Source of the DNA: Dorea sp. D27
GTDB lineage: Bacteria; Bacillota; Clostridia; Lachnospirales; Lachnospiraceae
Reading direction: 5' to 3'
NCBI RefSeq assembly: GCF_001185345.1
Contig: NZ_KQ236743.1
Span: 136,372 to 200,371, forward strand
DNA length: 64,000 nucleotides
Numbering within the stretch: the first letter of the stretch is position 1; every line of letters starts with the position of its first letter. Below are positions 20,648-44,117 of this stretch, piece after piece. The notes beneath the pieces are model-generated. The model was not told where the DNA came from. It made no database searches and was given only the letters and a program-made list of their open reading frames with translations. A program made the position numbers and the translations under genes.

Positions 20648-20660
20648 GAAACAATAGTAT

Positions 20661-22243: not shown

Positions 22244-24253
22244 TCAATATGCGGTCAGTGTGGACTGCTTGCTTATATCTTCTACCGGAGCCATGCACAC
22301 CCCGTTTTTGCATAGATAGTACATGGCCCCCTTACCAGGTATCGGATAATCCTTTACGTAGGGAAGGGCCTTCTCAAGCGTTGCTGCGTTTTCCTTCGTT
22401 TTGAGGATGACGGACAGATTTATAGCATTGTTATCCATCAGGTAATGCCGTAATGTCTCTGGCAATTCGCTGTCAGCCGATACACAGACTAGTTCCCTGG
22501 CCGGATAAAGGACCTTTATCAGAGCCAGAAGTCCAAAGCTATGGCCTGCAGGGTATTTTTTTATGCTTCCGGCAAGATATCTGATCTGCCGTTCCCGTGC
22601 CTCCTGCCAGAGTACATCGCACGTATACTGGGCTAACTGGACCAGCAAGACTGCCGCGGCTGAGTTGCCCGATGGAATTGCACCGTCGTAAGTCTCTTTT
22701 GGGCGTGTAATGAGAACTTCAGCATCTGAAGCAGTGAGAAAATATCCCCTGTTTACCTTATCTTCAAAAAGGTCTGTCATCTGGGCGGCAAAGTGTAAGG
22801 CGTCTTCCAGATACTCCGGCTCATATGTCGTGCGGTAAAGCTCTATGAGTGCCAGACCAAAGACGGCGTAATCATCCAGCTGGCCGGGAGTCGCCGCCTC
22901 ACCCTTTCGCCAGCGCAGATAAAGTCTGCCACGGCTGTCGGTCATATACTGTTTGATAAATTGGCAGGCGCGTACGGCAGCGTTCCGATAGCGGCTGTCC
23001 TTTGTTGTCTGAGCGGCTCTTGCCATCGCGATAATCATCCAGCCGTTCCAGGACAGTATGACTTTATCATCTCTGTGCAAAGAGACGCGGTCAAGGCGGT
23101 ATCCATATAGCTTTTTCAGACGTGCATCATCAGACGGCCAGGGATTTTGGTCCGACTCTATCCGGTTAGGGATACAGTTGCCTTCAAAATTCCCCTCTGA
23201 AGTAATGTCATAAATTCGACAGAATTCTTCACCGTCTTTAGAGCCTAATACTTCAAGAACTTCCTCCTTGGTGAAATAATAATATTTGCCTTCTACGCCG
23301 TCGCTGTCTGCATCCTGGCCGCAATAGAACTCCCCTTCCGGGCCGGTCAGTTCTCTTAATACGTAATCCAGTGTCCTTGTCGCCGTATCAGCGTATGAGT
23401 TCACTTTTGTAATCTGGTATGCCTCGAGATAAGAAATGGCGAGCAGGGCATTGTCATAGAGCATTTTCTCAAAATGTGGGACGAGCCATCTCTCATCAGT
23501 AGAATAGCGGGAAAAACCGCCTCCGATCTGATCGTTTATTCCTCCGCGGGCCATAGCGTCCAAGGTGTGAAGAGCCATCTCAAGTGCTTTGTCGTCGCCT
23601 TCCAAAATACTATAATCAAGAAGGAACAAGAGATTATGGGGAGACGGGAATTTCGGCGCACTGCCAAAACCGCCCCATTGTCTGTCATATTGCTGTTTAT
23701 ATAAATCTACCGCCTGCTTCAATATAACTCTGTCCGGAGTTTCCCCGGATGTGTGGCCGGAAGTGGATATAAAGTGGGCGATTTGCTGGCCGGTCTCTAA
23801 AAGCTTCTCCCTGTCCCGGCTCCAGAGCAGATGGACTTTCTGTAACAGCTCCAGAAGCCCTGTCTGTCCGTATCGTGGATGCTTTGGAATATAGGTTCCC
23901 AGAAAAAAAGGCTTCTGGTCTGGCATTAGAATCGCTGTGAGCGGCCATCCTCCGGCGCCGGTTACAGCCTGACAGGCGGCCATGTATACGGAGTCGATAT
24001 CCGGTCGTTCTTCCCGGTCGACTTTGATACAGACAAAATGGCTGTTCAGGAGCTCCGCTACTTCCTCATCTTCAAAAGATTCATGCGCCATCACATGGCA
24101 CCAGTGACAGGTTGAGTATCCAATACTTAGAAAGACCGGCAGATCTTCTGTTTTTGCACGTTCAAATGCTTCTGCACCCCATGGGTACCAGTTTACCGGG
24201 TTTTCCGCATGTTGTAATAGATATGGGGATTTTTCATTTATCAAATGATTCAT
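22244..24253 (-). CDS. Thioredoxin-fold/glycosidase-like protein, YyaL (DUF255) family
   Basis: This 669-residue cytosolic protein has a thioredoxin-like N-terminal domain ([20 protein letters not shown].. with the CHWC motif at 49-52). A long alpha/alpha-barrel domain follows, resembling N-acylglucosamine epimerases, with [39 protein letters not shown] and [11 protein letters not shown]. The family is widespread (human SPATA20) and its biochemical role is unknown. I start at ATG 24253, where GGAGGAGGG lies upstream; an earlier in-frame ATG at 24298 lacks such a site. It stands alone. Confidence 0.9.
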
Positions 24254-24399
24254 ATTCTTCCCTCCTCCTTTACTGTTTAATGTTCCCGGCGGCAGCATAT
24301 CTCATTCGTTCCAGCCGGCTGCATCTTGCGGCATCGGCGTGGCACGGCGGCCAGTCTTGAGATTGCTTCTGATGTGTTGCATTTTGCCTGCGGGTAATA

Positions 24400-25293
24400 T
24401 TACACATCTAATAATGAAAAATCATGTTGAATCTGTTCCAGAAATCTTTGGGCCGCTTTCGTAAATCTCTGATTTTTTTTCCATACCATATGCATGCTTG
24501 CGGTTTTTCGCGGGGACAGGGGCCGGAAGCAGAGGCTGCTGCCACTTCCGGTATCGACAAGTCCGTCCAGGGTCAGGGCACACGCAAAGCCTTCCTCTAC
24601 CATAAGAGAAGCATTATAGACAAGGTTGTAGGTGCCGGTGATATTCAGCTGGTTGAAATCCTTTTTAAGCCAGCCCGAGAATTCATTGTTAGATGCGGCC
24701 TGTCTGGAAGTCAGGAGGGTAAGATCCCATAAGTCCTCCGGGCGGATCTCGCTGCGTTCTGCGAGAGGATGATCCTTTCGCATGAGCAGCCCCCATACGT
24801 CAACTGCAGGAATGCGGATGTAATCGTAATTCTTGATGTCCGAAGCCTCGATGAGTACGGCAAAATCAAAGAGCCCTTTTTCCAGCTTGTCATGGAGATC
24901 TTCGGCGTTTCCGCTGGAAAGATGGTATTTGATGCCTGGAAACTGCTTCCGCAGCTTTGTCGCGGTTCTAGCAATGAGACGCATGGCATCGGTCTCTCCG
25001 CAGCCGATGTAGATATCCCCCTGAAGATCTGACGAGTCAGGTGCAGCTAATTCGTCCTCTGTCTTTTTGACAAGAGCAATGATTTCGGCAGCTCTCTTAC
25101 GAAGCAGCAGACCTTCTTCGGTCAGCGTTATCTTCCGGCTTCCTCTAATCAGCAGCTGCTTTCCGATTTCTTCTTCCAGCTCCATGAGGGCTCTGGACAA
25201 GGGCGGCTGAGTCATGTGAAGTGTATGGGCAGCTTTGGAGATGCTCTCTTCCCTGGCGACTGTAAGAAAATAATTGAGTACTCGGATATCCAT
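24400..25293 (-). CDS. LysR-family transcriptional regulator
   Basis: At 297 residues this is a typical LysR regulator: N-terminal winged helix-turn-helix (MDIRVLNYFLTVAREESISKAAHTLHMTQPPLSRAL, about 1-60) and a C-terminal effector-binding domain (about 90-290). GGAGG precedes the ATG. It is divergent from the acetyltransferase/cyclophilin-like/flavodoxin group starting at 25474. LysR proteins usually control the divergent operon, so this group is its likely target. The effector is unknown. Confidence 0.92.
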   Translation of the reverse strand: MDIRVLNYFLTVAREESISKAAHTLHMTQPPLSRALMELEEEIGKQLLIRGSRKITLTEEGLLLRKRAAEIIALVKKTEDELAAPDSSDLQGDIYIGCGETDAMRLIARTATKLRKQFPGIKYHLSSGNAEDLHDKLEKGLFDFAVLIEASDIKNYDYIRIPAVDVWGLLMRKDHPLAERSEIRPEDLWDLTLLTSRQAASNNEFSGWLKKDFNQLNITGTYNLVYNASLMVEEGFACALTLDGLVDTGSGSSLCFRPLSPRKTASMHMVWKKNQRFTKAAQRFLEQIQHDFSLLDV

Positions 25294-25325
25294 AGATACA
25301 TTCCTCCATATGTGTTGGTGAGAAA

Positions 25326-25354
25326 ATAGTAGCAGTTTAATGTATACCCGTCAA
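25326..25354 (-). promoter_or_regulatory. Promoter of the LysR gene
   Basis: On the minus strand, TTGACG (25354-25349) and TACTAT (25331-25326) are 17 bp apart, 33 bp before the start codon. Confidence 0.55.
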
Positions 25355-25381
25355 GTATGAAATGATATTTAATATAGGAAT

Positions 25382-25410
25382 TTGATATATTGTTTATCGT
25401 GACATACAAT
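25382..25410 (+). promoter_or_regulatory. Promoter of the acetyltransferase/lipoprotein/flavodoxin group
   Basis: TTGATA (25382-25387), 17 bp and TACAAT (25405-25410). The gap between this and the divergent LysR promoter is where a LysR operator would be expected. Confidence 0.55.
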
Positions 25411-25473
25411 GAAATTGGATGAAGGATACATGGCAGAAAGATGAGCCGAAATAGGAAAAGGAGAATAAACGCG

Positions 25474-26043
25474 ATGGAATTACAGGAATTTCTGAATTAT
25501 ATGAACAGCGGCCAGAAGGTAGTGGCAGGCTCGGAAGAGCATCTATGCATGACTCGCCTTTCCCAAGAGGCCCTGCGGCTGACGGCTGAATTAAACGGGA
25601 ATTATCACACGCCGGAAGAAATCAGGGAAATCTTTGCAGAACTTATCGGAAAGGAAGTGGATGAAACCTTTCACATGTTTCCCCCATTTTATACGGACTG
25701 CGGAAAGAATCTGCGCATAGGAAAACATGTCTTTTTCAACGGAGGATGCAAAGTGCAGGACCAGGGAGGTATCACGATTGGTGACGGGTGCCTGATTGGA
25801 CACAATGTAGTCCTGGCAACGTTGAACCACAACATGGATCCCGCCCACCGGGCAGACATGATACCGGCGCCGGTGCATATCGGGAAATGTGTCTGGATTG
25901 GGGCGAATGCAACGATACTGCCGGGTGTAACGATTGGTGACGGTGCTGTAGTAGCAGCCGGTGCGGTGGTAGCCGGTGACGTGCCAATGAACACGGTCGT
26001 AGGCGGCGTGCCGGCCAAGGTCATTAAGATGATAGAGACGTAG
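25474..26043 (+). CDS. Maltose/galactoside-type sugar O-acetyltransferase
   Basis: This 189-residue protein belongs to the hexapeptide-repeat (left-handed beta-helix) acetyltransferases that use acetyl-CoA. The N-terminal ~60 residues form the MAC helical domain. Hexapeptide repeats cover about 75-185, with CKVQDQGGITIGDGCLIGHNVV, HIGKCVWIGANATILPGVTIGDGAVV and GGVPAKVIK. The catalytic His is probably the one in LNHNMDP. I start at ATG 25474 because AAGGAG lies 10 bases upstream. It is the first gene after the LysR-divergent promoter. Confidence 0.9.
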   Translation: MELQEFLNYMNSGQKVVAGSEEHLCMTRLSQEALRLTAELNGNYHTPEEIREIFAELIGKEVDETFHMFPPFYTDCGKNLRIGKHVFFNGGCKVQDQGGITIGDGCLIGHNVVLATLNHNMDPAHRADMIPAPVHIGKCVWIGANATILPGVTIGDGAVVAAGAVVAGDVPMNTVVGGVPAKVIKMIET

Positions 26044-26054
26044 GAGGTGTGGGA

Positions 26055-26576
26055 GTGAAAAAATTGACCTGTTTCTTTCTGGCAGTACTGATGTCAGTTC
26101 CATTGTCAGGATGCAGCAGCCCCGCACAGAAGTCGGAGGACAGTGCCGGAAGCTATAATGATGCAGCGTCGGATACCGCTGATCCGGCGGCAAACAAGGA
26201 CAATGTAAGGCGGATAAGCGTCCGGGGAAGTGACGGCCAGAGCATCGTATTCCGGCTGAATGACAGTTCTGCGGCTGAGAGCCTTTATCATCAGCTCCCC
26301 TTAACCGTGCAGGTGGAGAACTACAGTGACAATGAGAAGATATTCTACCCGCCCGAAGAACTCGACACCGGCGGCACGCCACTGGCAGAGGGGCCGGCCG
26401 GTCTGCTGGCCTACTATGAGCCATGGAAAGATGTGGTCATGTTCTATGACCGCTGTGATGGAGCCGCTGGTCTCTATAAGCTCGGGGATGTGATATCAGG
26501 GGCGGACGAGATAGAGCGTCTGGATGGAGAGATACGGATAGAATCTGAATCAGAGAGGAAGGATAAGGATGAGTAA
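26055..26576 (+). CDS. Lipoprotein with cyclophilin-like fold domain
   Basis: This 173-residue exported lipoprotein has a signal peptide with lipobox LSGC (Cys20), an acidic Ser/Asp/Ala linker, and a C-terminal domain (about 55-155). That domain resembles the bacterial cyclophilin-like (Cyclophil_like) family: SIVFRLNDSSAAESLYHQLPLTVQVENY, PPEELDTGG and LAYYEPWKDVVMFY. Peptidyl-prolyl isomerase activity is not established for this family. The start is GTG 26055, with AGGAGG seven bases upstream. It often travels with flavodoxin genes and LysR regulators, as here. It overlaps the next gene by eight bases. Confidence 0.8.
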   Translation: MKKLTCFFLAVLMSVPLSGCSSPAQKSEDSAGSYNDAASDTADPAANKDNVRRISVRGSDGQSIVFRLNDSSAAESLYHQLPLTVQVENYSDNEKIFYPPEELDTGGTPLAEGPAGLLAYYEPWKDVVMFYDRCDGAAGLYKLGDVISGADEIERLDGEIRIESESERKDKDE

Positions 26577-27111
26577 AAAGATATGTGTAATTACGACGAG
26601 CTTACATGGAGGGAGCAACAGCGAAGCGCTGGCGGATGCATTTATCCGGGGCGCCGTGGAGGCGGGAGCCAGTGTGCAGAAGATAGGTCTTGCAGATAAG
26701 CGGATAGAGTTCTGCAGAGGCTGCCTTATCTGCCAGAAGACGCAGAAGTGCGTCATCCACGATGATGTATACGATATGATTGCACACATAAAAGCAGCAG
26801 ATGTGCTTGTTTTTGCTTCACCGGTGTACTTTTACAGCGTAAGCGGCCAGATGAAGACGCTGCTGGACCGTCTGAACCCGATGTTCCCTTCGGAATATGC
26901 TTTCAGGGAAGTGTATCTGCTGCTGGCTTCAGCAGAAAAAGATGAGACCGCTGCGGAGGGTTCCATAAAAGACATAGAGGGCTTTGTCTCCTGCTTCGAC
27001 CAGGTGGAACTGAAAGGAGTGCTGCATGCAGGAGGCGTCTCAGAAGGGAAGGATATCATGGAGCGCCCCGATATACTGGGGAAGGCGTATAGGATGGGAA
27101 AAGCGGTGTGA
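26569..27111 (+). CDS. Flavodoxin-like NAD(P)H-dependent FMN reductase family protein
   Basis: This 180-residue flavoprotein has the FMN-phosphate loop TTSLHGGSNSEAL at the N-terminus and SPVYFYSVSGQMKTLLDRL in the middle. Between them CRGCLICQKTQKCVIHDD is the Cys-rich loop common in the iron-sulfur-flavoprotein-like group, though only part of a cluster motif is present. It probably reduces quinones, nitro compounds or another acceptor. It overlaps the lipoprotein gene, indicating coupling within the LysR-linked group. Confidence 0.87.
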   Translation: MSKKICVITTSLHGGSNSEALADAFIRGAVEAGASVQKIGLADKRIEFCRGCLICQKTQKCVIHDDVYDMIAHIKAADVLVFASPVYFYSVSGQMKTLLDRLNPMFPSEYAFREVYLLLASAEKDETAAEGSIKDIEGFVSCFDQVELKGVLHAGGVSEGKDIMERPDILGKAYRMGKAV

Positions 27112-27149
27112 CTATGGACGAAAAGGCTCCCGTACGGACAGGAGGATTC

Positions 27150-28183
27150 ATGAAAAAACATATAGCGGAACATAAGATGATAAGGGTGCTATTGATCATT
27201 GCCTGTATACTTATAGCCATTTTGCTGACGGAGTGTTCCACAATACAGAACCATTTCAGATTATGGCAGAGGAGACGTCGGATGACGACAACATCATGTC
27301 TCAAAAAGGAACGAAACCGGAAGACAGCATTCCGACCGAGCAGCCGGAATTTGACAATGGCGGAACGTCCGGGCGGGTACAGGTCACATGGTTTGGACAC
27401 TCCTCTTTGCTTCTGCAGACAGACGGGCTGAATATCCTGATAGACCCTGTATTCAGCCAAAGGAGCTCACCGGTTTCTTTTGCAGGAGGCAGACGTTTCA
27501 GCCGTCCATCCATCACGGCGGAAGAGCTGCCTGATATTGATGTCATCGTATTATCACACGACCATTATGACCATATGGACTACCGCACGTTAAGAGATAT
27601 GGACAGTAAAGTGGACCGCTACGTTGTGCCGCTTGGCGTTGAGAACCATCTGGAGAGATGGGGGATTGCCCCGGATAAGATAACGAATATGGCATGGTGG
27701 GAAGAGACGCAGGTTCAGGGGCTTACGATTGGATGCACTCCTGCAAGGCATTATTCCGGCAGGAGCATTGATGACCGGAACGCGGCATTGTGGGCATCGT
27801 GGGTATTCAAGACGGAATCTGTGCAGATATTTGAGAGCGGGGATACGGGATACGGAGCTCATTTTCAGGCAATACATGAAAAGTACGGGGATTTTGACTT
27901 TGTGATGCTGGATTGTGCGCAGTATGACATGAGGTGGCCGGACGTCCATATGTTTCCAGAGGAATCCATACAGGCGGCCGCTATGCTAGGAGCAAAGGCT
28001 GCCATGCCGATACACTGGGGCGCATTTACCCTGGCAGAACATCCGTGGAATGACCCGGCGGAGAGATTTGTTAAAGCGGGAGAAGAGAGAGAGCTTGCGG
28101 TCGTTACGCCAATGATATGTGAGACGGTGAAGCTGGATAATGCGGACAGTTATGATACAAGATGGTGGCGGGAAGTAGATTAA
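27150..28183 (+). pseudogene. MBL-fold metallo-hydrolase gene with frame change after its membrane anchor
   Basis: The hydrolase part (from about 27260) is intact. VTWFGHSSLLLQ and the metal motif SHDHYDHMD, plus ARHYSGRS, ESGDTGYGAHF and PIHWGAFTL, match the UlaG/RomA-like beta-lactamase fold. A well-placed start exists upstream at 27150 (GGAGG, then ATG), encoding MKKHIAEHKMIRVLLIIACI..., a membrane anchor. That frame leaves the hydrolase frame near 27230 and stops at 27431. The hydrolase frame has no good ribosome site of its own; its first possible start is GTG 27233. I infer a one-base indel between about 27200 and 27240, from mutation or sequencing error. Confidence 0.6.
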
Positions 28184-28218
28184 CAGACTCAAACAAGTAA
28201 AAAAGGAGAGATTAAGCG

Positions 28219-28559
28219 ATGTTAGGAAATATAGCATATTCGAACCCGACGAAACTTTATTTTGGAGAAGGCTCTCTGGAGCATCTTCGGGAAGAACTGC
28301 CGAAATATGGGAGGAATGTTCAGCTCGTGTACGACGGCGGTTCCATCAAGAAGTACGGAATCTATGACAAAGTAGTTACAATTTTAAAAGAGGGAGGCAA
28401 GAATATCATGGAGGACGGGGCGTCATGAACACGAAGGAACTTGGCGTGACAGAAGACATGCTGGATGACCTCGTACAGAGCACTTTTGTTATGGAAGGCG
28501 GTTATAAGGTTCTGTCAAAGGATGAAATCAGGGATATTCTGAAAGAGAGCCTGGAGTGA
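28219..28559 (+). pseudogene. Internally deleted iron-containing alcohol (butanol) dehydrogenase
   Basis: Two ends of one gene remain. The first (28219-28428) encodes the N-terminus of a BdhA/YqhD-type enzyme: MLGNIAYSNPTKLYFGEGSL.. with the nucleotide-binding VYDGGSIKKYGIYDKV. The second (28425-28559) encodes the family's C-terminal tail: [40 protein letters not shown]. The normal enzyme has about 385-390 residues. The middle, with all metal-binding histidines and catalytic residues, is missing, so roughly 0.8-0.9 kb was deleted. An AAGGAG site still precedes the first ATG. It cannot be an active dehydrogenase. Confidence 0.85.
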
Positions 28560-28677
28560 TTGCATTGGCAATCCAGTATAAAGTAAGCGGTAACTACCTG
28601 CCAGAATGGAGCATAAACTTATATTAAATATTCGATACACATATTGCTTTGCACATTTGAGCAGGAAGGATACTATC

Positions 28678-29622
28678 ATGAATATATATAATAACAGTGA
28701 CTGTAGGAATGAAAAGCTCCATAATAATAGTTGTGATTGCTGCAACTGCGGGTGCTGCCGTGGCCCACAGGGGGAACCTGGTCCACAAGGGGAGCCCGGC
28801 CCACAGGGCGTACCCGGTCCACAAGGGGAACCAGGTCCAAAGGGGGGACCCGGCCCGCAAGGGGAATCCGGTCCACAAGGGGAACCAGGTCCACAGGGCA
28901 TTCCTGGTTTGCAGGGAGAACCAGGTCCGCAAGGAGAACCTGGCCCGCAGGGGGAACCTGGTTCACAAGGAGAACCCGGTCCACAAGGAGAACCAGGTCC
29001 ACAAGGAGAGCCTGGTTCACAGGGGGAGCAGGGGCCGGAAGGTACCTTTAATCCAGGAGATGTCTTGTTCTATATCAATGGAAACGGTGGTCCAATACCC
29101 ATAAGGTTTGGAGAAGATTTGAACTTTATATCCCCCAATTTAAATATTTTCTTATACGACAATCCTGCTACAGTGGAAATCAATGGAAAGGTAATGGAAA
29201 CTGCATTTGGCGGTCTATATTCCGACACTGTCCAATCGTTTGATTTTACTGTCAGCAATCAAGTTGAACAGATACAGTTCAATTATTTTATGCCATCCTT
29301 CAATGTTGGGACTAACCAGAATGAATTGCAGATTTATATACCAGGGGAATACGAAATCAACTATATGATTCGAATAGCTTCAGTAGAGATACCAGACCAG
29401 ACAATCACCGGGGGAGTACGGCAAAACGGCAGTTTCATTGACTCCACATTGCAATATGGCACACTTTCTACAACCGGTAACACTATCATACAAGGTAGTG
29501 TCATTGAATTTCTGAGCGGGCAGGTTGATTTGGCGTTTCGTTCCACCGGTGCTGCAGCCTTTGAGCTGGCTTCGCTTACAAATGCCACGCTTTCAATAAA
29601 ACGAATTACGCCGTTGCTATAA
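28678..29622 (+). CDS. Collagen-like repeat protein with BclA-type C-terminal domain
   Basis: This 314-residue protein has a short Cys-rich N-terminus ([12 protein letters not shown], to residue 28), 31 consecutive Gly-X-Y triplets (about 29-121, mostly GPQGEP) and a globular C-terminal domain (about 125-314). That domain has [13 protein letters not shown] and [13 protein letters not shown], like the TNF/C1q-like head of exosporium protein BclA. It lacks a signal peptide, as BclA-like spore glycoproteins do. The likely role is trimeric filaments on the spore surface or an adhesin. ATG 28678 is chosen because AAGGA lies upstream. The DNA is an 18-bp tandem repeat, so length variation is expected. 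Confidence 0.85.
28762..29040 (+). repeat. 18-bp tandem repeat encoding Gly-X-Y collagen triplets
   Basis: About fifteen degenerate 18-bp units encode GPQGEP hexapeptides with variants [30 protein letters not shown] and GSQGEP. Units differ mainly at third codon positions, so the array is not a fresh expansion. The opposite strand also appears open in this stretch only because of the repeat. Confidence 0.85.
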
Positions 29623-29699
29623 AAAACAGCAACTTTTGTGCTATCCTCAACCCGGATTTTTAGGGACAGATAGCCGGAAAGCCTTTTCTGTCGTGGCGA

Positions 29700-30083
29700 T
29701 TAGTTTCTATGTGCAATCATTTCAACCTCAACCCGCGCGCCCATGGGCAAACCTGTTACAGAGAAGCAGGAACGCGCCGGATAGGGAGCGACAAACTGTT
29801 CTGCATACAGCTTGTTCATAGCCGGGAAATCCCGCATATCGATTAAAAACACGGTACACTTCACCACATCGTCACGGGTAAGTCCGGCAGCCTTCAGAGC
29901 CTCGTCCAGATTGGCAAAGCATTTTTTGAATTGTTCCTCAAATGTTCCGTCAATGAAATGGCTGGTAACTAAATCCATGGAAGGCTGCCCGGATACATAA
30001 ACCACACCGTCTGCCTCTGTGGCATGAGAAAATGGAAAACCACACTTCTCACAGCCCTCTGCCAAATATGCTTTCTTACTCAT
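29700..30083 (-). CDS. RidA-family enamine/imine deaminase
   Basis: At 127 residues it matches the RidA/YjgF/UK114 family, which hydrolyses reactive 2-aminoacrylate formed by PLP enzymes to pyruvate and ammonia. The catalytic Arg (PARSCFSV) and the C-terminal Glu (VEVEMIA) are present, as is VYVSGQP. An unusual CEKCG is near the N-terminus. Its start overlaps the stop of the upstream alaX-like gene by four bases (ATGA), so the two are coupled. It ends the group transcribed towards the collagen-like gene. Confidence 0.9.
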   Translation of the reverse strand: MSKKAYLAEGCEKCGFPFSHATEADGVVYVSGQPSMDLVTSHFIDGTFEEQFKKCFANLDEALKAAGLTRDDVVKCTVFLIDMRDFPAMNKLYAEQFVAPYPARSCFSVTGLPMGARVEVEMIAHRN

Positions 30084-31300
30084 ACGCTTTCTCCTTTTTG
30101 TCCATTCAACTGTTTTTCTATGATTTTACCTGCTATTTCAACGGCCGTTGAGAGTCGTTCAGTATCCAGCCCAAACCCTTGTGCGTAGCAGGCCCTGCCA
30201 CCGCCTTTTCCTCCAATCTCAGCGATAGCGTCTTTGAACGCAGGCAGCACGTCGATGCGCTTTTCTGCCTTGCTGCATCCAAACATCAGTAACGCGCCGG
30301 CGGCGGTCTTTCCACCGAGCAACACGGCAACCCCCTTTTGCTCCGTCAGAAGAACAAAGAGCTGCCTCATTTCCTCCTTTGTAGTGTCTGGCAAGAGGTG
30401 TTTTACCAGAGTAATCTCGCCGATATGAGGTGCATTTCGGAGCAGACCGGACACTTCGGACGCAGACAAACGGTTCAAAAGAGCCTGTCTTTCGTCTTTT
30501 AATACCAGTACCTCACTCCGTTGTTTCATCACCCGCTCCTTCAGCTCCGTTTCATTACAATTCAATTCCCGCATTAAGTGCATAGCATTCCCGCAGAGGG
30601 TGCACACCCAACGCAGCGCCGGCTGCCCACAGAGAAAATGGATGCGCGAACCGCTTTTATGAGTGTCGATGCGCTGTATTTTAATAATGCCGACCTCGCC
30701 AGTGTACTTGTTTTGCAGACCACAACAGGGCGTGTAATCTAACTCTGCGATTTTTACGATACGGATTGCCTTATCTGTCTGCGGAACATCCCGCCTTGAA
30801 TTACGCTGTATTTCCTCCAAGCTTGGAAAAAGAACATCGACTGGGATGTTTTCATAAATAACCTGATTTGCGGCAGTTTCCAAAAGGGCGGCGGTTTCCT
30901 CTTTCACATAGCCGTCAAGATCGATGGATAAAGCATCCTGCTCCAAGCGCAGACCGATGGTATTAAGGCCATAGTCCCGGACAAACACAGCGGAGAGAAT
31001 ATGCTGGCCGAGATGCTGCTGCATCAGTTCAAAGCGCCGTTTCCAGTCAATCTTGCCGTGAGCGGTTTCCCTTGTGAGCGGTTTGTCCAACACATGAACA
31101 ATCTCTCCGTTTCGCTCATAAACATCCTCGACGGGACTGCTGTTCAGCGTTCCAAAATCACAGGGCTGGCCCCCGCCACCCGGATAGAACAGTGTTTTGT
31201 CTAGTACCACTTGAACCTTTCCATTTCGTACATCCTGCCGTATAACGGCAGCGTCAAATTCTTGCTGGTAAAGTGCATCATAATATATTTTTTTCGTCAT
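30080..31300 (-). CDS. Alanyl-tRNA editing protein, AlaX-L type (DHHA1 domain)
   Basis: This 406-residue trans-editing protein resembles the editing and C-terminal parts of AlaRS and should deacylate Ser- or Gly-tRNA-Ala. The order is: N-terminal barrel (FYPGGGGQPCDFGTL), the zinc motif HLGQH (editing core), TPCCGLQNKYTGEVG, then a coiled coil and a DHHA1 domain ending GGKGGGRACYAQGFGLD. In AlaRS and AlaX the second zinc motif is CxxxH; here the His position reads Gln (CCGLQ), confirmed in the DNA. It follows the LysE gene and is coupled to RidA. Confidence 0.88.
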   Translation of the reverse strand: MTKKIYYDALYQQEFDAAVIRQDVRNGKVQVVLDKTLFYPGGGGQPCDFGTLNSSPVEDVYERNGEIVHVLDKPLTRETAHGKIDWKRRFELMQQHLGQHILSAVFVRDYGLNTIGLRLEQDALSIDLDGYVKEETAALLETAANQVIYENIPVDVLFPSLEEIQRNSRRDVPQTDKAIRIVKIAELDYTPCCGLQNKYTGEVGIIKIQRIDTHKSGSRIHFLCGQPALRWVCTLCGNAMHLMRELNCNETELKERVMKQRSEVLVLKDERQALLNRLSASEVSGLLRNAPHIGEITLVKHLLPDTTKEEMRQLFVLLTEQKGVAVLLGGKTAAGALLMFGCSKAEKRIDVLPAFKDAIAEIGGKGGGRACYAQGFGLDTERLSTAVEIAGKIIEKQLNGQKGESV

Positions 31301-31400
31301 ATTCGTTTCCTCCCTTAATCGTGAAAGATATTACGGTTAAATAAGATGTTCTTGCCGATAGAGATTATGATACGGCAGTCTACGCTGTCGCCGGCCCTAA

Positions 31401-31991
31401 TCAATCAAATGCCAGCGATATGGCGCACCACAGTAATACAAGCGCCATAACGATATTGAACGTGCGGTAATATTTCGTCAGAAACTTTTGAAATGCACCG
31501 CCAGCCGCAGCCCATGTGATAGTACCTGCCACCCCAATGACCGTTATCATAAATGCGTGAATGAGCAAAACGCTTAAATTCTTGTCATAAGGCATCACAT
31601 AGCCTGTGTAGACCGTAATCGAGTAAAGGATGATTTTTACATTGGCGAACTCCAGCAGAAAGCCTTTCATAAAGGATATTTGTTTGTCCTCCGTATCTCC
31701 CGGCTTGCTCAAAGCTACATAAATGGCGAGGTAAACAATGTAAGCAGCACCTACATATTTGAGTACGCCTGCCATAGATGGCACATATCTTGCCAACTCA
31801 TAGCAGAACACCGCACAGACTACCATAACACACAAGAAGCCTGCAGCAATTCCTAAAAGGACATTCTTGCCCTTGCGCCAGCCGTTCTGACTGACCGCAT
31901 AGAGCGCGACGATGTTGTTTGGTCCCGGCGTAAAAGCCGTCACTAGCGTGTAGGGCAGATAAGAAACAATAATTTGAAATAACACTTGCAA
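31401..31991 (-). CDS. LysE-family amino acid exporter
   Basis: This 196-residue membrane protein has about six hydrophobic segments. The N-terminal TAFTPGPNNIVALYAVSQNGWRKGKNVLLGIAAGF is the LysE/RhtB signature. These proteins export amino acids such as Lys, Arg, Thr, homoserine or Cys. A ribosome site (GGAGGG) precedes the ATG. It is divergent from a LysR regulator, the classic LysE/LysG arrangement. The substrate is probably the regulator's effector, not predictable from sequence. It lies 100 bp upstream of the alaX-like gene. Confidence 0.9.
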   Translation of the reverse strand: MQVLFQIIVSYLPYTLVTAFTPGPNNIVALYAVSQNGWRKGKNVLLGIAAGFLCVMVVCAVFCYELARYVPSMAGVLKYVGAAYIVYLAIYVALSKPGDTEDKQISFMKGFLLEFANVKIILYSITVYTGYVMPYDKNLSVLLIHAFMITVIGVAGTITWAAAGGAFQKFLTKYYRTFNIVMALVLLWCAISLAFD

Positions 31992-32093
31992 CCCTCCTGT
32001 TCTTCCTTTATAATACAGCCAAAGAATAATTTTGTATAATTGAAATAATCGAAATAATAATTTGATTTTATTGAAGTATTTGGAGGCAGCGAT

Positions 32094-32981
32094 ATGGACT
32101 TAAAATACCTGAACACTTTTCGCGTCATCGTGGAAGAGGGGGGATTTTCCAAGGCCGCCGACAGGCTGGGCTATACCCAATCTACCATTACCTTTCAAAT
32201 TGGGCAGTTGGAGCAGGAACTTTCCACCAGCCTCTTTGAAAAAATAGGCAGAAGAATGGTGCTCACCAAGGCTGGCGAGCACTTAATTCCCTATGTAAAT
32301 GAAGTCCTATCCTCCGTGGACAGGTTGCGCAATTTTGAAGATGATCTCGCTGAGTGCCAAGGTGATCTTCGCGTTGGCGTTGGAGAGACGTTGCTGTGTT
32401 TTCATCTGCCCGCAATTCTGAAGGAATTTCATAAGAAAGCACCTAAAGCGCGGCTATTCCTGCGCTCCATGAACTGCTATGACATACGGGATGAACTGGT
32501 GGCCGGTTCTCTGGACATCGGCGTATTCTATAACTGTGTGGGCGGCTTCGGTACGAGCCTTACCACCTATTTCTTTGGCACCTATTCGCTGGCGCTGGTA
32601 GCATCACAGAAAACAAAAAAACAATATCGCGATTTCATTACAACCAATCAGCAGATACCTGTGCCGTTTATCATCAATGAGCCGAGCTGTGTATTCCGGC
32701 AGCTATTTGAACAGTACCTCCGGGAGAAGTCCATCATGCTCGACCACACGATTGAGCTTTGGAGTATTCCAACAATCAAAAATCTTGTAAAAAATGATGT
32801 TGGCATCTCTTATCTGCCACGTTTTTCCGTACAGGAAGAATTGAGCGACGGAAGCCTTGTGGAGATACCAACGGAGCTAACTGAAACGACGATCACTGCC
32901 GTCTGCGGACACCATAAAAACAAATGGATCAGTCCACTGATGCAGTTGTTTATTGATTTATGTGCTGGCGCCAGCAATTAA
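32094..32981 (+). CDS. LysR-family transcriptional regulator, divergent from LysE
   Basis: This 295-residue LysR protein has the N-terminal helix-turn-helix (MDLKYLNTFRVIVEEGGFSKAADRLGYTQSTITFQI) and a C-terminal substrate-binding-like domain. GGAGGC precedes the ATG. The 102-bp gap to lysE is AT-rich, with repeated AAATAAT and an imperfect inverted repeat (AATAATTTTGTATAATT) that could be a LysR site. It probably activates lysE-alaX-ridA in response to an amino acid. Confidence 0.9.
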   Translation: MDLKYLNTFRVIVEEGGFSKAADRLGYTQSTITFQIGQLEQELSTSLFEKIGRRMVLTKAGEHLIPYVNEVLSSVDRLRNFEDDLAECQGDLRVGVGETLLCFHLPAILKEFHKKAPKARLFLRSMNCYDIRDELVAGSLDIGVFYNCVGGFGTSLTTYFFGTYSLALVASQKTKKQYRDFITTNQQIPVPFIINEPSCVFRQLFEQYLREKSIMLDHTIELWSIPTIKNLVKNDVGISYLPRFSVQEELSDGSLVEIPTELTETTITAVCGHHKNKWISPLMQLFIDLCAGASN

Positions 32982-33034
32982 ATTGAAGAGATGATAAGGA
33001 CCTGTGGAAGGTCGGAAGCGTAGCGTGGATCGTA

Positions 33035-33063
33035 TTGTAATTAAAATAGCAAAGGAGTATAAT
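33035..33063 (+). promoter_or_regulatory. Promoter of the 77-residue protein gene
   Basis: TTGTAA (33035-33040), 17 bp and a perfect TATAAT (33058-33063), about 55 bp ahead of the small gene. Confidence 0.6.
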
Positions 33064-33118
33064 TAATTCCCACAGGGCATTTATATCAGATTATTTTACA
33101 GAAGGGATTGAACCGAAC

Positions 33119-33352
33119 ATGAGAACAGAACGTTTCAAGATGGAAAGAGAAGGACTCGTCGAAGAAGGGCAGGAAGTCGAGGTGAGCGAAAGAAGCGCTG
33201 TCACCGGACAGTATACATACCTCGTGGAACCATCCATCGCCATGTCAGGCATCTACAGGACATCCGAGAGAATCAAGTCGCGCCGGGGGATTATCAAGAA
33301 AATCGAAAAGACAGAAAAAGGGTTTTATCTGCTCGTTGAAATGGAGGAGTAA
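33119..33352 (+). CDS. Small conserved-looking protein of unknown function
   Basis: I do not recognise this 77-residue protein. It is hydrophilic with alternating charged residues and predicted beta-strands: MEREGLVEEGQEVEVSER, TGQYTYLVEPSIAMSGIYR, RRGIIKKIEKTEKGFYLLVEME. It resembles small SH3-like or beta-barrel proteins in layout. It has a good promoter and an AGAAGGGA site 9-10 bases upstream, and sits before tRNA-Trp. A real gene is likely; the function is open. Confidence 0.65.
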   Translation: MRTERFKMEREGLVEEGQEVEVSERSAVTGQYTYLVEPSIAMSGIYRTSERIKSRRGIIKKIEKTEKGFYLLVEMEE

Positions 33353-33369
33353 TTCAGGGCAAATTTTCA

Positions 33370-33399
33370 TTGACAAAAGAGTGTGTCATATGATATAAA
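33370..33399 (+). promoter_or_regulatory. Promoter of tRNA-Trp
   Basis: TTGACA (33370-33375), 18 bp and TATAAA (33394-33399), 22 bp ahead of the tRNA. Confidence 0.65.
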
Positions 33400-33421
33400 T
33401 ATCTAGTGAGCAATATCACTT

Positions 33422-33492
33422 AGGGGATTGGTCAAGTGGTATGATAGGGGTCTCCAAAACCTTTGGCGGGGGTTCGATTCCCTCATCCCCTG
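33422..33492 (+). tRNA. tRNA-Trp (CCA anticodon)
   Basis: The acceptor stem pairs AGGGGAT (33422-33428) with ATCCCCT (33485-33491), with G as discriminator. The anticodon loop reads TCTCCAAAA, giving CCA, and the T-arm GGGGTTCGATTCCC is canonical. The 3' CCA is not encoded. It is a single tRNA with its own promoter and terminator. Confidence 0.95.
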
Positions 33493-33502
33493 TAACGAAA
33501 AA

Positions 33503-39107: not shown

Positions 39108-39144
39108 ACTTCATAGTGAATTAATTCAAATCCAGCAGACAATT

Positions 39145-39306
39145 TAAGAGAAGGCCGTTTGAAAAAAGACGGCAGGGGAAGCCAGGTGAGAATCCTGCAC
39201 AATACCCGTTGCTGTATTGGAGGAGTGGTATTCCATGAGGTCACTGTAAGGATACTTATGGGAAGGCGGAATACCGTGATGATGCCTAAGTCAGAACACC
39301 CGCTTT
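39145..39306 (+). promoter_or_regulatory. Cobalamin riboswitch
   Basis: The leader of cbiM contains the conserved segments in order: AAGCCAGGTGAGAATCCTGCAC (here split at 39179-39200), the B12-box-like GTCACTGTAA (39239-39248), GGGAAGGCGGAATACC, and the terminal CCTAAGTCAGAACACCCGC. These match the cobalamin aptamer consensus. About 110 nt follow before the cbiM start, with no obvious T-rich terminator, so control may act at translation initiation. The likely target is cbiMNQO and the genes after it. Confidence 0.92.
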
Positions 39307-39417
39307 TAGATGGATTTGGATGGTTACGGGGATATAGCCAGATGTTTGCTGCGAATCTCTTTTGACTTTGTGGTAAACCTGGAATATTTTCAGAACATCA
39401 CAAAAGGAGAGAGAAAC

Positions 39418-40167
39418 ATGTCAAAAAAAGAAAAGATCTTACTCAAGGCATCGATAGTCTTTGCGCTATTGCTTGCCGTCACACCGGCTGTGAACGCGAT
39501 GCACATCATGGAGGGATATCTTCCCGCATCCTACTGTGTCGCATGGGGAGCTGTCAGCATTCCATTTCTGGCTGCCGGATTCATTACTTTGAAAAAAAGA
39601 CTGGAAGAGAACAGGAAATCTATCACACTGATAGCGATGGCCGGTGCGTTTATCTTCGTGATATCGTCCTTTAAGATACCGTCTGTGACGGGGAGCTGTT
39701 CGCATATGACCGGAACCGGACTGGGAGCCATATTGTTCGGTCCTTCGGCAGTCAGCATACTCGGCATCATCGTGCTGCTGTTCCAGGCGGTGCTTCTTGC
39801 CCACGGAGGCCTGACGACGCTCGGGGCCAATACATTTTCTATGGCAGTTGCCGGCCCCCTGCTTTCTTTTGGTGTCTATAAGCTCTGTTCCAGGCTTAAA
39901 GTCAACAGGAAAGTATCCGTATTTCTGGCGGCATGTCTTGGGGATATCTTTACATATTGCGTGACGAGCATGCAGCTTGCATTGGCTTATCCTTCTGAAT
40001 CCGGCGGGGTGGCGGCTTCCGCGGTGAAATTTCTCGGAGTGTTCGCGCCGACGCAGCTTCCCCTTGCCATCATAGAGGGGATTCTGACGGTCGTGATAGT
40101 GATCGGACTGGAATCCTATGCAAGGCCGGAACTGAAAGCGATTGGTTTTTTGAAGGAGGCAAAGTAG
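39418..40167 (+). CDS. cbiM: Cobalt ECF transporter S component CbiM
   Basis: CbiM is the metal-specific membrane component of the energy-coupling-factor cobalt importer. It has 249 residues, with a signal peptide ending in AVNA followed by MHIMEGYLP. After cleavage the Met-His N-terminus provides the metal-binding site. About seven membrane segments follow; SCSHMTGTGLGAILFGP and AHGGLTTLGANTFSMAVAGP are conserved. AAGGAGAG lies ten bases ahead. It is directly downstream of the riboswitch. Confidence 0.95.
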   Translation: MSKKEKILLKASIVFALLLAVTPAVNAMHIMEGYLPASYCVAWGAVSIPFLAAGFITLKKRLEENRKSITLIAMAGAFIFVISSFKIPSVTGSCSHMTGTGLGAILFGPSAVSILGIIVLLFQAVLLAHGGLTTLGANTFSMAVAGPLLSFGVYKLCSRLKVNRKVSVFLAACLGDIFTYCVTSMQLALAYPSESGGVAASAVKFLGVFAPTQLPLAIIEGILTVVIVIGLESYARPELKAIGFLKEAK

Positions 40168-40168: not shown

Positions 40169-40492
40169 ATGACGAAGAATACGAAGACAGTAATAATCTT
40201 ATTGGCTGTTGCATTGTGCATAGCGGTTATCCCGTTGTTCGCGCAGAGAGGAGCCGAGTTCGGCGGGTCTGACGACGCGGGAAGCGTGATGGTGGAAGAG
40301 ATTCATGGTGAATATACGCCTTGGTTCACTCCGGTACTCGAGACGCTCCTCGGCGGGGAGCTGCCGGGAGAGGTAGAAAGCCTGATCTTCTGCGTCCAGA
40401 CAGGGATTGGCGTCGGAATCATAGCCTTTGTCATGGGACGCTTCGTAGAAAGAAGGAAATGGATGAAGCACGACGAGGCGGAGAAGGATTAG
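40169..40492 (+). CDS. cbiN: Cobalt transporter accessory subunit CbiN
   Basis: This 107-residue protein has two membrane segments and an extracytoplasmic loop (AEFGGSDDAGSVMVEEIHGEYTPWFTPVLE) typical of CbiN, which helps CbiM load Co2+. It begins one base after the cbiM stop with GGAGG upstream, so it is translationally coupled. Confidence 0.93.
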   Translation: MTKNTKTVIILLAVALCIAVIPLFAQRGAEFGGSDDAGSVMVEEIHGEYTPWFTPVLETLLGGELPGEVESLIFCVQTGIGVGIIAFVMGRFVERRKWMKHDEAEKD

Positions 40493-40511: not shown

Positions 40512-41285
40512 ATGATTGTTGTAGATAAGCTTTGCTATCGGTCAAAGCTCAGATATGTCAACGCCGGCGAAAAGTTTACATTTTCCATGCTGACACTATT
40601 GTTCTGCATTGTCTGCCGTTCATGTATGCTTTCCCTGGCCGTGCTTCTGGTCAACAGCACCGTGACCGTAGGAAAAGGAGGCATCCCGCTGCGCACGTAT
40701 ATAAGACTTATGGCAGTGCCGTTTGCGTTTCTTGTTATGAGCACGCTTGCCATCATCGTGAATATCTCCAAAGTCCCACTGGATGCCTATGCACTACCGG
40801 TGGGAGCCTTTTTTATCACAGGCAGCAAAGCATCAGTCTTGTTTGGGGTGCGGCTTATCTTTACGGCGATGGCAGCGGTATCCTGCCTATATTTTCTGTC
40901 ACTTAACACGACGATGACAGATATTATGTGGGTACTGGACAGGCTTCACTGCCCGAAGATCATCTTAGAGCTGATGCTGCTGGTCTACCGGTATATTTTC
41001 GTGCTGATGGAGGCAGCATCGGTCATGCTTGTGTCACAGAAGGCAAGGCTTGGAAATAAGGATTTTAAGACAGCGTTAAGATCCTTTGGGAGCATGGGGG
41101 CCGGACTTTTAATGATAGCATTCAAGCGTTCTGGTTATTTATATGATGCCATGGAGTCTAGGTGCTATGATGGCAGGATACGTGTGCTGGAGGAACAGCA
41201 ACCGGCCAAGCCTTCAGAGATTACGCTCATTCTCTTATATGAGCTCGTATTGTTAGCATATACAGTATGGAGGAGAGTGGCATGA
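40512..41285 (+). CDS. cbiQ: ECF transporter T component CbiQ
   Basis: This 257-residue transmembrane coupling protein links CbiM/N to the ATPase CbiO. It has several membrane segments and, in the cytoplasmic loop, the coupling helices (KARLGNKDFKTALRSFGSM and SRCYDGRIRVLE, the ARG-type motifs). A GGAAGGAAG site lies upstream. Its stop overlaps the cbiO start (ATGA). Confidence 0.93.
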   Translation: MIVVDKLCYRSKLRYVNAGEKFTFSMLTLLFCIVCRSCMLSLAVLLVNSTVTVGKGGIPLRTYIRLMAVPFAFLVMSTLAIIVNISKVPLDAYALPVGAFFITGSKASVLFGVRLIFTAMAAVSCLYFLSLNTTMTDIMWVLDRLHCPKIILELMLLVYRYIFVLMEAASVMLVSQKARLGNKDFKTALRSFGSMGAGLLMIAFKRSGYLYDAMESRCYDGRIRVLEEQQPAKPSEITLILLYELVLLAYTVWRRVA

Positions 41286-42144
41286 TTGCAGAACCAGAAC
41301 AGGTACTGGAAGATATTATAATAGAAGCGAGAGATGTCCATTATTCTTATGAGGAAGGCGGACAGCAGTCACTGAACGGTGTCAGCCTGAAGATCGGAAG
41401 AGGGAAAAAGGTTGCCTTTATGGGAGCCAACGGTTCGGGTAAATCTACGTTTTTATGTGCTGCAACGGCATATACAGGCCGGACAGCGGAACGGTGCTCA
41501 TTGCCGGAGAACCAATTGACTATTCCAGAAAGGGGCTGATGGCTGTCCGGCGCAGAATCGGCATTGTATTCCAGGATCCGGATAACCAGCTGCTATCGGC
41601 AAGCGTCTATCAGGAGATCTCTTTTGGACCGATGAATCTCGGGATACCCGAGGATGAGATAAGGAGAGAGATAGAACGGGTGATGGACCATCTGGAGATA
41701 ACACCGTTCCGGGAACGCCCGGCACACATTCTGAGCGGAGGACAGAAGAAGCAGGTTACGATTGCAGATGTCCTTGTCATGCATCCGGATGTCATCATCC
41801 TGGATGAGCCGGCCTCCGCCCTTGATGCGAAACATACGAAGATAGTGAATCAGATAGTGGATAAGCTTGCCGAAGAGGGCATTACGGTCTTGATGGCGAC
41901 ACATGATATCAATTACGCTCTGGAGTGGGCGGATGAGATTGTGCTCATGCATGAGGGAAAGGTGCTGCTTCAGGCGGATCCATTGACCGTGTGCGGGAGC
42001 CGCGAGGCGCTGGCTATGACGAACCAGGAGGAGCCTGCGGTGCTGAAGCTTTTCAGGAGTCTGGTAGAAAAAGGCATTCTGGAGGAAGGTCTCAGGCCGC
42101 CTGTGAGCTTTGGTCAGCTGGAACAATATATCGGAGGGCAGATG
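41282..42144 (+). pseudogene. cbiO: Cobalt transporter ATPase CbiO with one-base frame change
   Basis: The gene starts at ATG 41282 (GGAGG upstream, overlapping the cbiQ stop) and encodes the Walker A GANGSGKST. The frame then breaks at a T5 run (41450-41454): the first frame stops at 41539. The rest of CbiO continues in the -1 frame from 41455, with GIVFQDPDNQLLSASVYQEI (Q-loop), LSGGQKKQVTIA (signature), VIILDEPASALD (Walker B) and the switch His. One additional T would give a normal protein of about 287 residues. A sequencing error, a real mutation or recoding are all possible. The continuing frame has no stop before cbiK. Confidence 0.8.
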
Positions 42145-42924
42145 ATGGAAGGAAAGAAGAAAAAGGCAATACTCGTTGTGAGCTTCGGAACAAGCCATAT
42201 GGATGCATTGGAAAAAAGCATAGAGCGGATTGAACTGCACATAGAAGAGGCATTTCCTGAATGCAGGATTTACCGTGCGTTCACAAGTGGAATGGTTTTA
42301 AGGAAGCTGAGCCGGACGAAAGGGCTGCAATTTCATAGCGTAAAAGAAGCCATGGAGCAGATGGCCACGGACGGGATGGAACAAATTATCGTCCAGCCGA
42401 CACATATCATAAATGGCATTGAAAATGACAAGATGATGAATGACCTGATAGAATACACGGACCGGTTTAAGAAGATCAGAGTCGGGAAACCGCTGCTGAC
42501 GAGCGTGGACGATTATAAAAAGGCAATACACGCAGTGATGGCAGAGGTAAGGCTTGAGCCGGGCGAGGCCTTGGTGCTGATGGGACACGGAACAGCCCAT
42601 CATGCAAATGCGGCCTATCCGACGCTTGAATATACGTTCCACTCCCTTGGATACAGCCAGGTGCTTGTAGGCACGGTGGAAGGCTTTCCGGATTTGAGGA
42701 ACGTGATGGCGAAGCTGGAGATTGCAGGGGCGGAAAGGGTAACGCTTATGCCGTTCATGCTCGTGGCAGGAGACCATGCCAAACATGATATGGCAGGAGA
42801 AGAAGACTCGTGGAAAGCAGAGCTTGAAGCTGCAGGGTATGAGGTGAAGCCGCTTATAAAGGGCCTTGGAGAGATGAAAGGTATCCGCAATATCTTTGTA
42901 GAACATATCGAGATGGTGATGTAG
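42145..42924 (+). CDS. cbiK: Sirohydrochlorin cobaltochelatase
   Basis: CbiK inserts Co2+ into sirohydrochlorin or precorrin-2, the step that commits the pathway to the cobalt-early route. It has 259 residues when started at ATG 42145, which has GGAGGG six bases upstream. AILVVSFGTSHMDALEKSI, VQPTHIINGIENDKM and LMGHGTAHHANAAYPTLEYTF carry the metal-binding histidines. There is no signal peptide, so it is cytoplasmic. The same frame is open through the preceding cbiO, so an ATPase-chelatase fusion polypeptide could also be made. Confidence 0.92.
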   Translation: MEGKKKKAILVVSFGTSHMDALEKSIERIELHIEEAFPECRIYRAFTSGMVLRKLSRTKGLQFHSVKEAMEQMATDGMEQIIVQPTHIINGIENDKMMNDLIEYTDRFKKIRVGKPLLTSVDDYKKAIHAVMAEVRLEPGEALVLMGHGTAHHANAAYPTLEYTFHSLGYSQVLVGTVEGFPDLRNVMAKLEIAGAERVTLMPFMLVAGDHAKHDMAGEEDSWKAELEAAGYEVKPLIKGLGEMKGIRNIFVEHIEMVM

Positions 42925-42953: not shown

Positions 42954-44117
42954 ATGGAAGGAGACAGCCGGGACGGCAGGAACAGACAGATAGTATGGAA
43001 GAACCAGAAGAGGATGCGTACCGGCTATACGACCGGAAGCTGTGCGGCAGCAGCGGCCAAGGCGGCTGTCTGCATGCTGCTGTCCAAAGAACCGGTACCT
43101 CACGTATCCCTGCTGACCCCAAAGGGTGTCAGGCTCTATCTGGACGTGGAATGTATCGAGACCGGCAGGGGTTATGCCAGTTGTGCCGTGCGCAAGGACA
43201 GCGGGGATGATCCGGATGTGACGGACGGCGTACTTGTCTATGCCAGAGTGTCAAGATGCAAAGGGGATGCAGTCAGCCTGGAGGGCGGGACGGGGATCGG
43301 CAGGATTACGAAGAACGGGCTGGAGCAGCCCATAGGCGCCGCGGCTATCAACAAGGTGCCGCGCCGCATGATCATAGAGGCAGTGGAAGAGCAGAGAAGA
43401 AAATTCGGCTGTAAAGACGGCATCGCTGTCGTTATCTCTGTCCCGGACGGGGAGGAACTGGCTGAAAAGACATTCAATCCCCGTCTCGGAATCAAGGGAG
43501 GAATCTCCGTACTCGGGACGAGCGGCATCGTGGAACCGATGAGTGAGAAAGCGCTTACCGATACGATATATCTGGAGATGAAGGTGCTGAAAGAAAACGG
43601 GCATGCGTGGTGCTGTGCCGTCCCGGGCAACTATGGCAGCGATTTCCTGACAGGGACGCTCGGGTATGACGGCAGCCTAGCGGTGAAGTGCAGCAATTAT
43701 ATCGGGGAGACGATTGACGATGCGGTTCGTATCGGTATGAAAGGGCTGCTGTTCGTCGGACACATCGGAAAGCTTGTCAAGCTGGCGGCAGGGGTGATGA
43801 ATACCCATTCAAGACAGGCAGACTGCCGGATGGAAGTATTTGCCGCCCATGCGGCTCTCGCCGGTGCAGACCGGGATACGGTGCAGAAGCTGATGGAATG
43901 CGTGACGACAGCCGAGGCAGTGGATATCCTGAAGTGCGGCGGATTACTGGGACCCGTCATGCAGACGGTCATGGACCGGATCGACTATCATATCCGGCAG
44001 CGTGCAGGAAAGATGCTGGCAGTCGGTGCGGTCGTGTTTTCTATGGAAGTAGGAATTCTTGGAAGCACACCGTCTGCTTCCAAGATACTGGATCAGATAC
44101 GGAAAGGGACGATGTAG
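42954..44117 (+). CDS. cbiD: Cobalt-precorrin-5B C1-methyltransferase
   Basis: This 387-residue enzyme methylates C1 of cobalt-precorrin-5B with SAM. RTGYTTGSCAAAAAKAA near the N-terminus is diagnostic, as are GEELAEKTFNPRLGIKGGISVLGTSGIVEPMS and FVGHIGKLVKLAAGVMNTHS. AAGGAG is seven bases before the ATG. It directly precedes cbiL. Confidence 0.95.
   Translation: MEGDSRDGRNRQIVWKNQKRMRTGYTTGSCAAAAAKAAVCMLLSKEPVPHVSLLTPKGVRLYLDVECIETGRGYASCAVRKDSGDDPDVTDGVLVYARVSRCKGDAVSLEGGTGIGRITKNGLEQPIGAAAINKVPRRMIIEAVEEQRRKFGCKDGIAVVISVPDGEELAEKTFNPRLGIKGGISVLGTSGIVEPMSEKALTDTIYLEMKVLKENGHAWCCAVPGNYGSDFLTGTLGYDGSLAVKCSNYIGETIDDAVRIGMKGLLFVGHIGKLVKLAAGVMNTHSRQADCRMEVFAAHAALAGADRDTVQKLMECVTTAEAVDILKCGGLLGPVMQTVMDRIDYHIRQRAGKMLAVGAVVFSMEVGILGSTPSASKILDQIRKGTM

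Follow-up and report, generated by a model that had tools for sequence, protein, structure and literature searches.

The window analysed here, a stretch of 64 kb, contains a forward-strand frame at 41455–42924 (489 codons plus a stop) that is open across the body of the cobalt-importer ATPase CbiO and the whole of the cobaltochelatase CbiK. The initial annotation had described cbiO as running into cbiK without a stop, and the frame was recovered exactly so. This raises the question of whether the locus joins the motor of a Co2+ importer to the enzyme that inserts Co2+, and of how the two genes came to share a frame. A chance ORF was ruled out, both halves being conserved genes: PF00005 was matched at residues 4–120, with the profile matched only from position 32 on, and a complete PF06180 CbiK domain was found at residues 237–488.

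Gene content of the cobalt-import and B12 locus

The B12 region of the window has the order cobalamin riboswitch, cbiM, cbiN, cbiQ, cbiO, cbiK and cbiD, all on the forward strand. The riboswitch ahead of the cobalt-import genes (39131–39321) matched Rfam RF00174 with 85.7 bits, against a gathering threshold of 31.5. The genes for the cobalt S component, cbiM (39418–40167; start MSKKEK picked by eye), and the T component, cbiQ (40512–41285), scored above the cut-offs of TIGR00123 (280.8 bits) and TIGR02454 (146.3 bits), as did cbiD, the next gene of the B12 operon (42954–44117), for TIGR00312 (419.1 bits). The assignment of cbiN (40169–40492) draws on operon position and a TIGR01165 score of 69.6 bits, which is below the cut-off of 104.85.

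The cbiO gene was found to be divided between two frames. Its 5′ part, containing Walker A (GANGSGKST), lies in frame 2 at 41282–41539 and ends at a stop 84 bases past the frame break; the start at ATG 41282 was inferred from GGAGGAG before the ATG and from the starts in relatives. The remainder, in frame 1 (41455–42141), carries the Q-loop, signature, Walker B and H-loop with no stop ahead of CbiK, and is encoded together with cbiM, cbiN and cbiQ. Walker A and these four motifs are not in one translated frame in the window, and, unlike the Blautia-type fusion described below, there is no single open frame from Walker A to the end of CbiK.

The cbiK gene (42142–42924) was identified from profile and structure-sequence matches, and in the database it is called as a separate 260-residue protein starting at 42142 (P0242). 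PF06180 is matched over its full length, and the GHG and VAGDHA motifs align with His145 and His207 of 1qgo; the score against NCBIfam NF047852 is 257 bits, below the cut-off of 400. By its sequence the protein is assigned to the class II cobaltochelatases and is predicted to insert cobalt into sirohydrochlorin. It had also been proposed that an internal start with GGAGGG would permit separate CbiK, and this start is present: the Shine–Dalgarno-like GGAGGG (42133–42138) precedes ATG 42142 and ATG 42145, and the linker, GGA GGG CAG ATG ATG, reads as a Shine–Dalgarno sequence plus start in the CbiK frame.

Two length differences produce the joined frame in the window

In the three other genomes of the same genus (G001, G002 and G003), cbiO encodes 293 residues ending in EGR, cbiK is separate, and the cbiO stop and cbiK ATG overlap by four bases, ATGA. 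The window is two bases shorter than all three after 42131, just before the overlap (site 42126–42132), and these absent bases shift the frame so that the cbiO stop is lost. A point mutation of the stop codon was thereby ruled out as the cause. The suggestion of a lost stop near 42130–42144 was thus right as to place and wrong as to a changed codon. A stop between the genes in relatives had been named as evidence against a fusion; one exists in these three genomes, and none in Blautia parvula and its kin.

The second difference lies inside the Walker A codons, where the window has a run of five Ts (41450–41454; T5), one base shorter than the T6 of G001 and G003 and the TTCTTC of G002. The absent base splits the Walker A start from the frame of the CbiO body. 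With Walker A in another frame, the window, as assembled, encodes no working motor–chelatase fusion, and the proposal that the frame joins a working Co2+ importer motor to the chelatase is not supported here. As assembled, the joined frame is the outcome of two small length differences from the same-genus genomes.

Assembly quality and selection

To judge whether these differences are real, frameshifts elsewhere in the assembly were considered. No other uncompensated in-gene frameshift was seen in the 30.4 kb collinear with G003, in an alignment read by eye. Collinearity with the fetched G003 stretch extends over 33612–64000, as against scattered similarity at 18500–33500. A DNA-level count across 229 kb of aligned genes listed six frameshift spots: 41455, the mutually cancelling pair 11023 and 11089, 38290 near a gene start, 194898 and 273610. 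This count skips the last 30 bases of genes, which places the two-base cbiO difference outside it. It was used in place of a protein-level count of split genes, which was blind to the broken cbiO, the tblastn ends having overrun the break; that count gave 2/188 and then 3/216 G003 genes split in the window's genome (G000), and 2/191 and then 4/213 in the reverse direction. With so few frameshift spots in 30.4 kb and in 229 kb, an error-ridden assembly is not favoured as the source of both differences.

A database protein from a different contig of 4167 bases (P0122) has the same cbiO/cbiK junction. It begins at a GTG downstream of the T run, possibly having been clipped by the contig end, and its final residues are unlike those of the window, as if the cbiK of that contig had a separate frame change. 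The T5 run is known from one assembly plus this indirect hint. On this evidence the two-base-short junction in the window is probably real.

Selection was compared across the locus as dN/dS. Against G002 the values were 0.116 for the cbiO body, 0.223 for the cbiO start, 0.215 for cbiQ and 0.105 for cbiK; against G003 they were 0.160, 0.233, 0.180 and 0.072, respectively. As estimated from these alignments, both cbiO pieces are under purifying selection similar to that on the neighbouring genes, and the break is therefore recent or an error: the T5 run arose by a recent mutation or is a mistake in the sequence.

It is possible, though we hold it only tentatively, that T5 reflects a mistake in sequencing or assembly and that the strain makes an intact CbiO–CbiK of about 547 residues, a young and independent fusion. 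The site is a homopolymer with T6 in two relatives, both cbiO pieces are under purifying selection, and the two-base-short junction recurs in the second contig. The gene at spot 273610 (in coordinates of the joined stretch; about 409981 of contig C1 of G000) is likewise one base short in a homopolymer, an A8 run, relative to G003. Against an error, the assembly has few frameshift spots, six in 229 kb with two cancelling, and P0122 starts past the T run, which would suit a break in its upstream frame too, although it may be contig-clipped.

The same data bear on whether the cbiO of this strain is just a decaying gene, with two small deletions, a join to cbiK that is a by-product, and free CbiK as the only product. 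Two frame-changing differences do fall within 680 bases of cbiO, with none uncompensated in other genes of the 30-kb stretch, and the database calls cbiK as a gene of its own; CbiM and CbiN are also reported as the minimal transport set (PMC7689651). Decay nevertheless appears unlikely: neither cbiO piece has an excess of amino-acid changes, the cbiM, cbiN, cbiQ, cbiK and cbiD frames are all open, and among the matches listed in the window's genome there is no close second cbiO, the next best being 34% identical, so that the importer would lose its motor.

A third alternative is a one-base slip of the ribosome or polymerase at the T run, which would give some full-length fusion and serve as an on/off switch or a dosage control. 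Shifting by −1 on TTT TTA would lead exactly into the reading frame of the body of CbiO, and selection on both cbiO pieces would fit such a switch. However, the run is only T5, G002 has no T run there (TTCTTC), and the heptamer G TTT TTA is not known as a standard slippery site, which counts against slippage. We give this explanation hardly any credence.

CbiO–CbiK fusions in other genomes

It had been suggested that CbiO–CbiK fusions be sought in related genomes, and they were found, in 19 of the 61 named loci fetched with a CbiK part and in all 20 genomes of genus g29. In a search with the joined-frame protein, all 120 of the matches listed (of 6802) had both PF00005 and PF06180. Thirteen of the 19 fused named loci are titled Blautia, and the others include Robinsoniella peoriensis. 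The loci with a separate CbiK include L094 (B. luti), L105 (B. schinkii) and L117 (Blautia sp. MSJ-19), and cbiM, cbiN, cbiQ and cbiO were not found in the fetched flanks of these three loci. In the family, Lachnospiraceae, CbiK occurs in 231/397 genomes and CbiO–CbiK in at least 15 of the 397; 15 of the 25 long-frame rows examined were confirmed, with G056 (frame 426) left out of these rows. Genus g29 includes B. parvula (100% match), and one of its 20 fused genes is clipped by a contig end.

Several candidates were set aside. The remaining 10 of the 25 long-CbiK-frame rows (L147, L151 and L155–L162) are not CbiO fusions, with Pfam run on six of them. In a phylum sample of 398 genomes no further CbiO–CbiK fusion was found among the matches listed, a search that may miss weak cases: in G464 (L163), which lies outside the family, cbiO and cbiK share a frame but are separated by a TAA, and the candidate in G547 is 31% identical with four stops.

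The fused set comprised 51 genes, 42 of them distinct when compared over the last 1000 bases; three genes identical to named loci had been dropped beforehand. The gene order cbiM–cbiN–cbiQ–cbiOK was seen in 18/18 named fused loci examined, with the incomplete L087 left out. Walker A and the end of CbiK lie in one open frame in 41/42 distinct genes, the exception being clipped by its contig. The signature and H-loop are present in 42/42 and Walker A in 41/42 (L212 is contig-clipped). The strict Q-loop and strict Walker B are each present in 39/42; the three Q-loop misses read IIFQDP, and of the Walker B misses those in L049 and L148 are conservative, the third being L089. By motif, the CbiK histidines aligned to positions 145 and 207 are kept in 42/42 if GEHA is allowed (L148 and L153). 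A structure prediction for the fusion of B. parvula contains both folds, with 5x3x and 1qgo as best matches. Its pTM is 0.50 and linker residues 283–293 have pLDDT below 50, so it does not fix the relative placement of the domains, and channelling between them is without structural support.

These results show intact CbiO–CbiK to be well established as a gene at the end of cbiM–cbiN–cbiQ in Blautia and in other Lachnospiraceae. The joined protein is common in databases under names such as ‘ATP-binding cassette domain-containing protein’ or ‘sirohydrochlorin cobaltochelatase’. No description of the fusion was found in literature searches, most subscription journals being outside their reach. 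The statement that the arrangement is not known from described systems thus stands as far as descriptions go, although the protein itself is already common among database sequences.

Other unusual CbiK frames were noted in the survey. One frame in L156 (1632–3362), from another genome of the family, combines a porphobilinogen deaminase (HemC) domain with CbiK, one in L151 (1771–3339, reverse strand) combines a tetrapyrrole methylase domain with CbiK, and contig 13 of G640 has two head-to-tail CbiK matches in one long open frame (126246–127784). CbiK seems prone to fusion. The CbiK-family proteins of L155, L157 and L161 have long C-terminal additions, with a weak NEAT match in L161, and are perhaps surface haem-binding relatives like FetB and not B12 enzymes.

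The linker of most fused genes retains a start for CbiK

By a fixed-rule recount, a Shine–Dalgarno sequence with an in-frame start codon occurs in the linker of 36/42 distinct fused genes, six to eight codons ahead of the first strand of CbiK. The Shine–Dalgarno sequence is GGAGG in 34/42 and GAAGG in 2/42, spaced 10 (or 7) bases from the start, and the linker Gly-Gly codons are GGAGGA in 28 genes, GGAGGT in seven and GGGGGA in one. The internal start is missing in 6/42, namely L106 (ATA), L111 (ATT), L143, L149, L150 and L153.

Where the start is present, its residue varies among Met, Val and Leu, with the codon always ATG (13 genes), GTG (15) or TTG (8). Valine at this position is encoded by GTG in 15/15 cases, against 29% elsewhere in the same genes, and leucine by TTG in 8/8, against 6.3% elsewhere; distinct linkers alone give 11 Val and six Leu cases, and with the rows related, these frequencies multiplied together are not probabilities. 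At least nine switches among the three codons were counted on a quick tree of 41 rows from which the linker was excluded. As a control, GGAGG followed after 4–12 bases by an in-frame start was found off the junction 20 times, in 15/42 genes, with nine of the 20 at one codon position inside CbiK; per codon, the pattern is much less frequent there than at the junction, though it does occur.

We read the linker pattern as probable selection on initiation, which would give two predicted products, a CbiO–CbiK fusion and free CbiK. That a single gene could yield two products is supported, as a prediction, by the intact fusions with a retained internal start in many relatives.

The strongly conserved internal ribosome site and start look as though free CbiK is the product required, and would also fit a reading in which Blautia and its kin use the shared frame from the cbiK start only, the linker being a leftover and no fusion protein being made. 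We consider this very unlikely. All 20 genomes of g29 hold both genes in one open frame, and three genomes have the fusion as their single CbiK-family gene: G273 (one contig, 99% complete), G260 (96%) and G024 (92%). For these three, no ATG, GTG or TTG was found in the last 30 linker codons and no CbiX match was found besides, weakly, the same fused gene; a CbiD gene is present in each. If these organisms make B12, their chelatase would be the fusion only, barring a start at another codon or within CbiK.

Probable repeated origins of the fusion

A quick tree of CbiK with 107 rows places the window with Extibacter on a starred branch, within a 37-row group in which all other rows have separate genes. 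The fused label requires eight changes on this tree, at least five of them forced by starred branches, with gains and losses not distinguished. Descent of the window fusion from the Blautia fusion is not favoured, the tree setting the window apart. The fused protein closest to the window in sequence among the matches listed is P0002 (62%), which, when added to the tree, falls among Mediterraneibacter rows of the same 37-row group and is likely to be one more origin of the fusion.

Two loci appear from their sequences to be one small step short of fusion: G464, with its single TAA, and L116, which lies beside Robinsoniella in the tree and in which cbiO and cbiK overlap in different frames with AAGGAGG and an ATG. 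The state before fusion would have been one in which the end of cbiO overlaps the ribosome site of cbiK itself. One small indel at the overlap would then join the two genes without removing the internal start. The window would be a separate instance of such an indel-made join, its sequence as described above and the order of events being inferred.

Proposed explanation and significance

Taken together, we consider it probable that the window yields free CbiK and no working fusion, and that the intact join is established in Blautia and other Lachnospiraceae with two predicted products. In the window, the absence of two bases puts CbiK into one frame with the CbiO body, and the short T run keeps the ATP-binding start out of it; free CbiK is likely to be made from the retained GGAGGG/ATG start. 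The frame in the window is likely a broken young fusion next to a working cbiK. In the fused genes elsewhere, one gene is predicted to give both a CbiO–CbiK fusion and free CbiK. The fusion would tie the chelatase to the importer's cytoplasmic motor, at two per CbiO dimer given the CbiMQO stoichiometry of 1:1:2 reported in PMC7689651, and incoming Co2+ would meet CbiK first.

A broader proposal, which we judge about as apt to hold as to fail, is that in gut Lachnospiraceae one gene gives an importer motor with the chelatase at its tail, inserting Co2+ at the mouth of the importer, together with a free chelatase pool serving cytosolic metal. Small slips converting the ribosome site of cbiK into a linker would have produced the fusion on more than one occasion, and the window would have been caught mid-step. 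A function of the tether between CbiO and CbiK is inferred.

It is a lasting question in metal biology how a chelatase acquires the correct metal. The review PMC7689651 takes CbiK as a model case of protein metalation governed by affinity and by metal availability in the cytosol. For Salmonella, with separate CbiK, it reports that measured affinities and cell availabilities suffice for Co(II) acquisition; tethering is therefore not generally needed. The motor–chelatase fusion offers a natural experiment for the alternative of hand-over at the membrane, and its internal start would let the fused and free routes be separated by one codon change. For annotation, the joined protein is at present named in databases after either half.

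Comparison with known systems

CbiMNQO is a group I ECF transporter and CbiK a class II chelatase, as classified in PMC7689651. Relative to the CbiMNQO cobalt importer, represented by the CbiMQO structures 5x3x and 5x41 and the CbiO dimer 5x40, the fused genes differ in having CbiO joined to a chelatase, and the window differs in having the Walker A part of CbiO in another frame. The CbiK of the window resembles the class II enzyme of Salmonella (1qgo, 2xwp), matching 1qgo with 187 bits and keeping the equivalents of His145 and His207. The Salmonella enzyme is a free protein, whereas in the window and the fused genes CbiK makes up the C-terminal half of a frame shared with CbiO, its own start being retained.

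As a gene with one frame, an internal start and long and short products, both of them predicted for CbiO–CbiK, the fusion is similar to cas8b, from which Cas11b is made (PMC11899642). It differs in that the short product would be a whole enzyme, encoded by a separate gene in other bacteria, of which the internal start looks like a remnant. B12 genes are also placed in one frame in the CobD/CbiP and SirA/CysG fusions (PMC3403914), but those join biosynthetic enzymes to each other, whereas CbiO–CbiK joins a transporter motor to an enzyme. CbiO–CbiK with an internal start, as found in Blautia parvula and its kin, is a widespread and seemingly undescribed variant on these systems, its products being predicted.
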